Source: a virus
Reading direction: 5' to 3' (one strand)
IMG/VR virus record: IMGVR_UViG_3300048044_000033
Coordinates: 1-27,237 of that record
DNA: 27,237 nt
Below are positions 16,704-20,540 of this stretch, piece after piece. The translations under genes were made by a program, and so were the position numbers. Below the pieces are notes generated by a model that saw only the letters and a list, made by a program, of their open reading frames with translations, searched no databases and was not told the DNA's origin. Every line of letters starts with the position of its first letter. Position 1 is the stretch's first letter.

Positions 16704-16927
16704 GCTACCTTGCTAAATTTGGATCTGTAGAGCTTCTTAGAATCTTCTTTGACAAACTTATTTTGATTCTCAAAATAACGATTACCACGTTCATGATCAT
16801 CTGGATATACACCACGAGGAGAAAACTTCTCGTTGTCGGAAATGTATCCTTTATCAAATGTGTGAGCACCCTCGTGCATTTGTGGCCCTTTATCTGGATC
16901 ACCATGCACACCTTTTGCACCTTTCAT
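16700..16927 (-). CDS. Small charged protein, unknown
   Basis: 75 residues behind one of the strongest ribosome sites in the window (AGGAGGGAAT). It is hydrophilic, Gly/Asp/Lys/His-rich and probably mostly disordered (KGVHGDPDKGPQMHEGAHTF), with a basic C-terminus (KEDSKKLYRSKFSKVA). It starts the minus-strand unit that diverges from the plus-strand RNA-repair module and is coupled to the next gene by ATGA. Strong translation signals suggest a real, perhaps abundant product. Confidence 0.65.
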   Translation of the reverse strand: MKGAKGVHGDPDKGPQMHEGAHTFDKGYISDNEKFSPRGVYPDDHERGNRYFENQNKFVKEDSKKLYRSKFSKVA

Positions 16928-16943
16928 ATTCCCTCCTGGAATG

Positions 16944-16977
16944 TTAGTAAATATTTTACTTTACATTATCTGAGTGC
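16944..16977. promoter_or_regulatory. Operator-like palindrome, copy 3, with ACATTAT/TGAGTGC elements
   Basis: TTAGTAAA-TAT-TTTACTTT (16944-16962) contains the exact reverse complement of the 15-base core of the copy at 3748. It is followed by ACATTAT and TGAGTGC (16971-16977), both also found upstream of the portal gene. The site lies between divergent units, so it could control the small minus-strand gene, the plus-strand RNA-repair module, or both. Confidence 0.5.
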
Positions 16978-17053
16978 GACGAAGTTGTCATTAAAATAAT
17001 TTCTGTAGTTGTGGGAAATCTTAGGCTTGCTTATCTTTTGATAACTTGACTTT

Positions 17054-17143
17054 GCATCCTTAGCTCAAAAGTAGAGCGCATCTGGGCCGTTTATTCCAAT
17101 TTTTGGTTTAGGTGAGGATGATGGTGCAAGTCCATCAGGATGC
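17054..17143 (+). ncRNA. tRNA-like cloverleaf with a 10-bp extended anticodon arm
   Basis: A full cloverleaf can be drawn. The acceptor is GCATCCT (17054) with AGGATGC (17137-17143), 7 perfect pairs. TA then leads into a D arm GCTC-AAAAGTA-GAGC, with one linker base. The third arm is CATCTGGGCC (17079) with GGTTTAGGTG (17105-17114): 10 pairs including G-U, closed by a 16-base loop. A 5-base variable region precedes the T arm GATGG-TGCAAGT-CCATC. The D loop lacks the usual GG, no CCA is encoded, and no 7-base anticodon loop with U33 can be formed, so a decoding tRNA is unlikely as written. Removing 19 bases from the third arm would give normal tRNA size. It sits 75 bases upstream of an RNA-repair operon. 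It could be a decoy, a leader regulator, an intron-bearing tRNA or a decayed tRNA. Confidence 0.65.
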
Positions 17144-17172
17144 TTTAGGGGAAGTGAACCAAAACAGCTTTT

Positions 17173-17188
17173 GCAAGTAGTTACTTGC
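17173..17188. promoter_or_regulatory. Palindrome/hairpin before the RNA-repair operon
   Basis: GCAAGTA-GT-TACTTGC lies between the cloverleaf and the first start codon. Its CAAGTA/TACTTG arms resemble the inner arms of the 19-bp palindromes but with a shorter centre. It could be an operator half-relative or an mRNA hairpin 25 bases upstream of the ribosome site. Confidence 0.45.
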
Positions 17189-17218
17189 CCCCTTGTTCTA
17201 TTCCCTTGAAGGAATCTT

Positions 17219-17866
17219 ATGATTGTTGACTGTATATCTGACTTACACGGCTACTATCCAAAACTTGAAGGTGGGGATCTTCTGATTGTGGCAGGGGATT
17301 TGACGGCTAGAGATCATGAATATGAATACAGAGAAGTTTACGAGTGGTTTTGGATGCAAAATTATGCAGGAATAGTCTTCATTGGTGGAAATCACGATAA
17401 TAATATCGGGACAATAACTAAACAAGGACCTCAAAGCATTCAATATTTATGCGATTCAGGTACAGAATTCCTAGGACTGAAGATCTGGGGATCACCTTGG
17501 ACTAAGACATTCAAAGGCATGAATCCGCATTGTAAAGCCTTCACTATGGAAGATGATTGCCAGATAGGAGAGAAATTCAAACTCATTCCAGACGATACAG
17601 ATATATTGATTACACACTCTCCCCCTTTGGGCATATTAGATGTTGTACAACGTTGGCCAGACATGAAAATGGAAAACTGCGGAAGTGGACATTTGCGTAC
17701 TCATGTAGAAAGAATAAAACCTAAATTGCACGTATTTGGTCATATTCATGAAGGTTATGGCAAACTTCTCCTTAAACACCAAGGTCCCAATACATGGTGT
17801 GTGAATGCTAGCCATGTCAATGAGGTTTACGATCCCATAAATAAGCCTATAAGGATAATCTTATGA
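17219..17866 (+). CDS. Metallophosphoesterase (calcineurin-like)
   Basis: 215 residues; GAAGGAATCTT precedes the ATG. The five metal-binding blocks of the calcineurin-like fold are present in order: SDLHG (7-11), GDLT (26-29), GGNHD (56-60), THSPP (132-136) and GHIHEG (174-179). They would hold two metal ions for phosphomonoester or phosphodiester hydrolysis; no signal peptide is present, so it acts in the cytoplasm. Its stop overlaps the RNA ligase start by four bases. The phosphatase of bacterial Pnkp/Hen1 repair systems is from the same superfamily and removes 2',3'-cyclic or 2'-phosphate ends, so a role in preparing broken RNA 3' ends is a reasonable inference. A nucleotide phosphodiesterase is the alternative. 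Confidence 0.88.
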   Translation: MIVDCISDLHGYYPKLEGGDLLIVAGDLTARDHEYEYREVYEWFWMQNYAGIVFIGGNHDNNIGTITKQGPQSIQYLCDSGTEFLGLKIWGSPWTKTFKGMNPHCKAFTMEDDCQIGEKFKLIPDDTDILITHSPPLGILDVVQRWPDMKMENCGSGHLRTHVERIKPKLHVFGHIHEGYGKLLLKHQGPNTWCVNASHVNEVYDPINKPIRIIL

Positions 17867-18831
17867 ATGAAGGTCTAGCTTACATAGGAAAAATCATATC
17901 TCTTGAAGATGTTCCAGATTCTGATTTTATCTCATGCGCTACGGTGGTTTGTGGAAAAGGTGGTAAGTGGAGGGGAGTAGTTAAACGCGGAACTCTTTAT
18001 GTTGGTGGTCGATGTAGGATTTATCTTCCAGACAGTCTTTTAGTTCCTTCTGAAGAATTTCTGTTCATGGATAAGCATAGGTATCGCGTGCGCATGTGTA
18101 AGTTTCGTGATTGCCCTTCCGAAGTACTCATAATGCCCATGAAGATAGAATACATTTCTTGCCCTGTAGGGGAAGATATTACTTCGTTAGAGGGTGTAAA
18201 AAAGTACTTCAAACAAATACCTTTAGATATGCAAGGTGAGATTTATGGAGAATTTCCTCAATTCATACCTAAAACGGATGAACCGAATTATCAGACTGTG
18301 CCTGATGTTGTTGAAAGTCTGGTTGGCAAGCCTTATTACATCAGTCAGAAGATGGATGGCACGTCATCTACAGCATATAGATACAAGGGTCATTTTGGGG
18401 TGTGTTCGCGCAATTGGGAACTGAAACGTGATGAAAATAATGCATTATGGAAGATAGCTATAGATCATGATTTAGAGAATAAATTGCCCGAAGGTTATGC
18501 TATCCAATGGGAAACCTGTGGTCCTAAAATTCAAAGTAACATGGCTGGATTGAAGGAAATTGAAGGATTTGCGTTCAATATTTATGATATAGAGAAACAA
18601 GAAAGGCTGTATTTTAGTGATTTTAACGATTTCACAGATAAACTTATGTTTCCTATATGTAGGATTTCAGGCATGGGAGAGGCGTTTAATGAAGAAATGA
18701 TGCATATGCATGCCGAGAGACTTACATATGATAATGGACAACCTCATGAGGGTGTAGTTGTGCGCAGTCAAGATCTTATCAATGGACAACACATAAGTTT
18801 CAAGTGCATAAACCTTAACTACGAGAATTGA
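17863..18831 (+). CDS. ATP-dependent RNA ligase, DRB0094/Rnl5 type
   Basis: 322 residues; AAGGATAATCTT precedes the ATG. Nucleotidyltransferase motifs are complete: I KMDGTS (163-168, adenylated Lys163), an SRN block at 182-184, III QWETCGPKIQSN (215-226), IIIa FAFNIYDI (236-243), IV EGVVVRS (296-302) and V SFKCIN (312-317). About 150 residues precede motif I and look like an OB-type beta domain (ATVVCGKGGKWRGVVKRG, YRVRMCKFRD). That N-terminal OB plan and the length match the Deinococcus DraRnl (Rnl5) family, which seals 3'-OH/5'-phosphate nicks in RNA. It is coupled to the metallophosphoesterase upstream. A DNA ligase is unlikely because no C-terminal OB domain follows motif V. Confidence 0.88.
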   Translation: MNEGLAYIGKIISLEDVPDSDFISCATVVCGKGGKWRGVVKRGTLYVGGRCRIYLPDSLLVPSEEFLFMDKHRYRVRMCKFRDCPSEVLIMPMKIEYISCPVGEDITSLEGVKKYFKQIPLDMQGEIYGEFPQFIPKTDEPNYQTVPDVVESLVGKPYYISQKMDGTSSTAYRYKGHFGVCSRNWELKRDENNALWKIAIDHDLENKLPEGYAIQWETCGPKIQSNMAGLKEIEGFAFNIYDIEKQERLYFSDFNDFTDKLMFPICRISGMGEAFNEEMMHMHAERLTYDNGQPHEGVVVRSQDLINGQHISFKCINLNYEN

Positions 18832-19922: not shown

Positions 19923-20540
19923 ATGATCATTTTTGACTTAGATGGAACTTTAGCTAATTGTGATCATCGCAGACATTTTGTCGATGCATCTTATAGAACT
20001 GATTGCTATTACCATTTTCCTGCTACTCTCTCTCAAAGCGAGGGATGGTTTTACAAGGATCGTATTTTAATGTGCGAACCACCAAAAGCAATAAAATTTA
20101 TCCCTGACTGGAAAGCATTCAACGAGGCGTGCGATAAAGATGAGCCCATCCAACCCGTAATGGATATGTTTTGTCGATTGCTGGCGGAACAGCAACAGGA
20201 TATAGAGGTGTGGTCTGGAAGGTGCCAATCTGTAGAAGATAAGACAGTAAATTGGTTGAGATATCATTTAGATGATTATTTTGGTAGAGATGCTTATATT
20301 AAATGGAAATACAATATAAAGATGCGTCCCATAGGCGATTCAACTCCAGACGATCAACTTAAAGAGCGTTGGTTAAACGAACGATGTTCAGATCTTATTG
20401 AAGCTATAATAAATGATCTTCCTCATGCAGTGAAACATGATGTCGAATTTGTATTTGATGATCGCCCGAAAGTGATCCGCATGTGGAGACGTAGAGGTAT
20501 ATTTGTGTTCAACTGTTGTAAGCATGATAGAGAGTTTTAA
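19923..20540 (+). CDS. HAD phosphatase resembling the T4 Pnkp 3'-phosphatase domain
   Basis: 205 residues; AAGGACATC precedes the ATG. HAD motifs: I DLDGT (5-9, nucleophile D5 and acid D7), II WSGR (97-100, Ser98), III DDQLKERW (143-150, Lys146) and IV DDRPKVIRMWRRRG (179-192). The motif IV string, two Asp then R-x-x-V-x-x-MWRR-x-G, is the pattern of the C-terminal phosphatase domain of T4 polynucleotide kinase/phosphatase, which removes 3'-phosphate and 2',3'-cyclic phosphate from RNA ends. There is no kinase P loop, so this is a stand-alone phosphatase. Residues about 17-75 are an extra cap-like segment. It shares the operon with the RNA ligase, supporting an end-healing role. A nucleotide 5'-phosphatase is the alternative. 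Confidence 0.82.
   Translation: MIIFDLDGTLANCDHRRHFVDASYRTDCYYHFPATLSQSEGWFYKDRILMCEPPKAIKFIPDWKAFNEACDKDEPIQPVMDMFCRLLAEQQQDIEVWSGRCQSVEDKTVNWLRYHLDDYFGRDAYIKWKYNIKMRPIGDSTPDDQLKERWLNERCSDLIEAIINDLPHAVKHDVEFVFDDRPKVIRMWRRRGIFVFNCCKHDREF

Follow-up and report, generated by a model that had tools for sequence, protein, structure and literature searches.

The purpose of phage tRNA genes is a matter of decades-long debate in which, to our knowledge, almost every answer presumes decoding. In tmRNA, tRNA-type acceptor and T arms are joined to a long helix and there is no anticodon arm. In the engineered tRNA scaffold a foreign hairpin replaces the anticodon loop. This scaffold is in use for recombinant RNA (PMC3753655). 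In the Salmonella RNA-repair operon, the tRNA-like RNA YrlA may competitively inhibit an anticodon nuclease without being a substrate itself, and bacterial rtcBA is under the control of tRNA fragments (PMC7790460). Some phage tRNAs have changes in the anticodon loop that are predicted to make them resistant to host tRNases (eLife 2023, PMC10264068). The RNA described here is encoded by a soil-type phage. Its acceptor, D and T arms are intact, its elbow pair is compensated, and the place of the anticodon arm is taken by a long hairpin. The RNA was first noticed in a sequence-only reading of the same DNA. The observation is confirmed and is more general than was stated there; the interpretation is partly supported.

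The window, by which we mean the whole 27,237-nt stretch of DNA that was analysed, is part of a virus of ~40.5 kb. At positions 17054-17143 of its plus strand, 90 nt fold into a tRNA cloverleaf (−31.3 kcal/mol, centroid identical) with z = −2.98, and 2 of 200 shuffles fold equally well, so the cloverleaf proposed earlier holds. The parts are listed in Table 1. The discriminator is the T at 17144 and CCA is not encoded. More specifically, the third arm forms 11 uninterrupted pairs in the canonical 27/43 register, with CATCT/AGGTG at 27-31/39-43. One nucleotide separates it from the D arm and five form the variable loop, so the helix begins exactly at the anticodon-stem position. At least 10 pairs in this register were obtained in 67 of 200,000 base shuffles. 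The earlier description of a long helix stands, and its size of 10 bp with a 16-base loop changes by one apical pair to 11 bp and 14 nt. Like a decoding tRNA, the RNA has a cloverleaf with a 7-bp acceptor stem, a D arm and a 5-bp T arm. A 5-bp anticodon stem with a 7-nt loop, U33 and a purine at 37 is absent, and we agree that there is no usable anticodon. Loss of stem pairing, as in a pseudogene, is not seen: all 16 acceptor, D and T pairs are intact.

As had been pointed out, the D loop (AAAAGTA) has no GG. This is offset by the T loop, TGCAAGT, which carries G55 and C56. Among 582 tRNA-like genes, a sample partly collected by an A18/G55 pattern, the 18/55 combinations were A18/G55 (34), G18/U55 (414), G18/G55 (1) and A18/U55 (6). 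About normal-size tRNAs are found in 50 of the 53 stretches collected by that pattern. The A18/G55 swap is therefore a natural compensated variant and not a sign of decay, which makes a folded elbow plausible for the window RNA. One gene with the same swap, a tRNA-Thr(UGU)-like gene with the T loop GGCGGTA, lies 1.1 kb past the ligase in a relative (L004:3585-3656).

Regarding detection by common tools, Rfam RF00005 scores the RNA at 42.5 bits (cut-off 29) under permissive filters only; the gathering scan with default filters does not match it. ARAGORN calls no tRNA here by default and reports tRNA-Thr(ggt) with a 19-nt insert in intron mode. The YrlA model RF02553 has no match at E<=10 within 16950-17220. 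The tmRNA model does not match the RNA either, and its third acceptor pair is A-U, not G3-U70. Since default ARAGORN and default-filter Rfam miss them, phage tRNA-likes without a decoding arm are probably under-annotated. Our search of the open literature, with subscription papers outside its scope, found no description of a codon-blind tRNA-like class.

The first gene 3′ of the RNA, for a metallophosphoesterase, lies 75 nt downstream on the same strand, and the gene for the PNKP-type phosphatase is found on that strand 2.8 kb from the RNA. K, D and G of the ligase KMDG motif are invariant across the alignment, and no kinase domain was seen in the PNKP-type phosphatase. Pfam bears out the RNA ligase and two phosphatases of the earlier annotation. 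Neither a sigma-70 promoter nor a terminator was found in 16880-17260, and the claim that the RNA leads an operon is thus read solely from orientation and spacing. A Ro60 (TROVE) gene is absent from this phage (G000/G001) and occurs in 1 of 48 records tested, namely in a ligase-bearing relative (G031:25345-25662; L227/L228).

Table 1. Features of the tRNA-like RNA and the genes downstream of it (window coordinates).
Feature	Position	Strand	Evidence
tRNA-like RNA, hairpin in place of anticodon arm	17054..17143	+	fold; Rfam tRNA 42.5 bits; ARAGORN intron mode
Acceptor stem, 5′ strand GCATCCT	17054..17060	+	7/7 pairs with 17137-17143
D arm GCTC-AAAAGTA-GAGC	17063..17077	+	4/4 pairs; A18 G19 replace G18 G19
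Third arm, 11-bp helix + 14-nt loop	17079..17114	+	fold; anticodon-stem register
Variable loop AGGAT, 5 nt	17115..17119	+	sequence; length canonical
T arm GATGG-TGCAAGT-CCATC	17120..17136	+	5/5 pairs; G55, C56, A58
Acceptor stem, 3′ strand AGGATGC	17137..17143	+	fold; pair count
Spacer, long imperfect hairpin of modest significance	17144..17218	+	fold z −1.76
Metallophosphoesterase	17219..17866	+	PF00149 1.8e-10
RNA ligase, N-terminal OB-like domain, KMDG motif	17863..18831	+	PF09414 1.9e-19; phrog_968 7e-37
PNKP-type HAD phosphatase, DLDGT	19923..20540	+	PF25109 6e-19

The sole other copy of the tRNA-like RNA sits in contig L002/G001. With 1 difference over 16,042 nt, and none inside the element, this contig is the same virus, and the copy gives no direct sign of selection on this very RNA. 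The locus has no blastn match among named phages, and the site upstream of the phosphoesterase in relatives holds no homologue. Judged by the capsid, L144, L146, G056 and G031 are the closest relatives; they have related genes and lack the RNA. In one of them, a GC-rich intergenic stretch 5′ of the capsid gene (L146:7210-7555) reaches −130 kcal/mol in 346 nt and has no match in Rfam.

Relatives were collected as over a hundred contigs found via the ligase or the phosphoesterase and scanned for cloverleaves with the third arm left free; Markov-shuffled sequence gave 0 matches at score >=39. In these contigs 58 third arms are canonical and 33 non-canonical; the corresponding counts for other phage contigs are 119 and 19. 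In the ligase clade 16 of 91 third arms are strongly expanded, as compared to 3 of 138 among other phage tRNAs (p 9e-5, or 0.006 with class A counted once). A further ~1 Mb from the remaining parts of the relatives' genomes held no additional expanded-arm gene. Twelve of the 13 expanded-arm genes of the clade are on the same strand as all ligase and phosphoesterase genes located at the locus (<=10 kb), and the 13th (L005) is on the ligase strand. Normal-size phage tRNAs with C or G in place of U33 were also seen (L074:6106, L143:1852, L215:1853, L083:16441 and others), with loops such as CCGTTAA, CCGATAA and CGTCTAA.

Seven of the clade sequences form class A, with the frame GGCGATGAG[variable hairpin]TTTTCATGCAGTGTC. 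Covariation is seen in its acceptor, its T stem and the base of its hairpin: 12 pairs carry double changes, and the score is 0.42 as compared to 0.157 in shuffled alignments, with 0 of 500 shuffles reaching the score. Every letter of the internal loop GCGATGAG/TTTTCATGC is retained, whereas the cap differs greatly between members, both in length and in sequence, and its pairs change in a compensatory way. A looser second class A pattern gave 118 matches and 0 new members. Class A was rejected as a bulge-helix-bulge; on each strand the bulge is on the 5′ side of the central helix, the reverse of the archaeal motif. GATGAG was rejected as a hammerhead, its GAAA partner being missing. Relatives without compensatory changes had been named as the outcome adverse to the sequence-only reading. 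Half of this was found: the nearest capsid relatives keep the genes without the RNA, whereas the distant ligase-bearing ones covary.

Outside the clade, an IMG/VR pattern of class-I D and T arms separated by a 40-70-nt gap gave at least 110 distinct matches, and all 7 acceptor pairs are present in 75 of 110 among the matches listed. The 27-31/39-43 register is fully paired in 24 of the 72 nonredundant viral cases among the matches listed, as compared to 1.0 by permutation (maximum 6 in 2000). Family B (GGTGAAGGACC) comprises 11 sequences from unrelated viruses; its covariation is 0.43 as compared to 0.15 (0 of 500 shuffles), and it keeps GAAGG plus other unpaired elements. Families A and B are two independent sets of tRNA-likes without an anticodon, and selection has clearly maintained their base pairs. 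That the window RNA is no lone oddity is borne out, with comparable genes in relatives and in unrelated viruses, widespread across viral metagenomes, and compensatory changes in two families. In bacteria the same D- and T-arm pattern matches 8 of 883 genomes from three phyla, and 6 of the 8 matches are one Chloroflexota family, a conserved expanded-arm tRNA-like gene (L577-L582) common to 6 of 301 Chloroflexota genomes.

Another group of viral tRNA genes carries inserts of ~40 nt with a hairpin and an ACAGCAA motif on the 5′ side of the anticodon stem, at about 28/29-29/30 (L457:10535-10647, L471:1483-1596, L485:4649-4764, L525, L553, L561, L564, L506). Inserts of this type are also seen in L491, L495 and L560. 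Exact removal restores canonical arms with several anticodons, which makes these inserts candidate mini-introns.

Could the window RNA itself be an interrupted tRNA? It would then be a gene for tRNA-Thr(GGU) interrupted by a 19-nt intron, which a host nuclease would remove before the phage ligase sealed the ends, as the ARAGORN intron call, the adjoining ligase gene and the mini-intron-like genes of other viruses could suggest. In the excision test one block was removed at any position and a canonical anticodon arm was required; it was run on 22-24-nt class-I arms, while the class-II members L005, L031, L044, L076, L080:12735, L139 and L141 were judged by loop-only excision. Any-position excision restores 13 of the 72 viral cases among the matches listed (0.2 expected), mostly those with the ~40-nt insert near 29/30 and ACAGCAA. 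Loop-only excision can yield a canonical loop in L141, and with a mismatch in L005, which is within chance for 16 tests. For the window RNA no excision, in the loop or at any position, restores a canonical arm, none of the nine class-I clade members is restorable, and the RNA lacks the motif of the viral ACAGCAA set. The loop restored in the ARAGORN call, TTGGTTT, would put U37 where a purine is expected. The tRNA with a small insertion, which the sequence-only reading had also considered, therefore finds no support, and we regard the intron as very improbable. A role in cis has somewhat more in its favour and is still quite unlikely. The tRNA-like fold would be an RNase P/RNase Z processing site or a sensor setting repair-gene expression, as its place on the same strand 75 nt before the first gene and the control of rtcBA by tRNA fragments (PMC7790460) may suggest. 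Against this, tRNA-likes of relatives are found on both sides of the ligase, at distances of up to 9.6 kb, and within tRNA arrays, and no terminator was found in the region searched.

Decay is the strongest of the rivals, and we still consider it unlikely. A phage tRNA would have lost its anticodon loop via a small duplication or insertion and would now be drifting, which agrees with a single copy missing from the nearest relatives. The same virus has further odd-armed tRNA-likes outside the window: a 138-nt class-II, Ser-type one with hairpins enlarging the third and variable arms (L031:11568-11705) and, in the next ~120 nt, a CCU tRNA-like with 2 anticodon-stem mismatches (read by eye). Intact pairing of the three other arms, the compensated elbow, a helix of 11 bp in exact register and the selection seen on families A and B all speak against drift. 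The earlier argument that decay rarely keeps four helices is a fair one; it does not close the matter, as the other copy is the same virus. Less likely again is a natural tRNA scaffold, in which a tRNA body would lend defined ends and stability to a small hairpin that regulates or binds protein. For class A this payload would be the invariant internal loop GCGATGAG/TTTTCATGC under a free cap, in line with its constancy while the cap changes by compensatory pairs, and family B retains GAAGG and other unpaired elements. On the other hand, the window RNA, class A and class B have no payload in common.

Our preferred reading of the window RNA is a tRNA mimic that does not decode and that may inhibit tRNA-attacking host enzymes by competition; we give this a probability of roughly 0.4. 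It draws on the fold and its geometry, the Rfam match, the A18/G55 elbow, the failed intron test, the adjoining RNA repair genes, enrichment and shared strand in the clade, covariation in A and B and the 24 of 72 paired registers. Against it stand the lack of a homologue of the exact RNA, nearest relatives without the RNA, no promoter match, and Ro60 in one record of 48. As to membership, a tRNA in the sense of a decoding adaptor fails, and so does a Y RNA: a tRNA-like domain without an anticodon loop is present, a YrlA match and a Ro60 gene are not. The tRNA mimic is the best-supported reading.

How might such a mimic work? Its transcript would be trimmed in tRNA fashion by host RNase P and 3′-end enzymes and would fold to an L with a closed helix at the end of its lower limb. 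It could then neither read codons nor offer an anticodon loop to be cut. Most likely it would bind host proteins that hold on to the body of a tRNA, chiefly defence enzymes that attack tRNAs, and would inhibit them competitively without being cut itself. A further point against the reading is that anticodon nucleases usually recognise the anticodon arm, the very part that is absent here, so a decoy would need to act via the tRNA body. The downstream ligase and phosphatases would repair tRNAs cut despite the inhibitor, the same division of labour that has been put forward for YrlA in the Salmonella RNA-repair operon (PMC7790460). With somewhat less than even odds, viruses of bacteria widely encode codon-blind tRNA mimics with true tRNA ends and elbow and family-specific hairpins, serving as uncuttable decoys or scaffolds in an arms race over tRNAs with the host; the window RNA, class A (GCGATGAG..TTTTCATGC) and family B (GGTGAAGGACC) would be among the members of this class. 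Phage tRNA-likes with a selected body and a lost decoding arm separate the two functions of a tRNA, and the idea of decoy and repair is directly testable.

Compared with known systems, the window RNA resembles tmRNA in the long helix replacing the anticodon arm. It differs in its 4-bp D stem, A3-U70 and closed hairpin, and it has no reading frame and no pseudoknots. Intron-containing tRNA genes, of the archaeal/eukaryotic type or with group I introns, likewise have extra sequence in the anticodon arm, but excision of the window insert never gives a canonical tRNA and the insert is much too short for a group I intron. The engineered tRNA scaffold also has a hairpin at the anticodon loop, whereas the window RNA is natural. 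The phage tRNAs of PMC10264068 share an altered anticodon arm and a tie to tRNA-cleaving defence; those tRNAs still decode and the window RNA cannot. YrlA (RF02553), encoded beside Ro60 and RtcBA, is like the window RNA a non-decoding tRNA mimic encoded with RNA-repair genes. The window phage has no Ro60 gene and carries a PF09414-type ligase instead of RtcB, and in contrast to YrlA its RNA ends at the acceptor stem, like a real tRNA.
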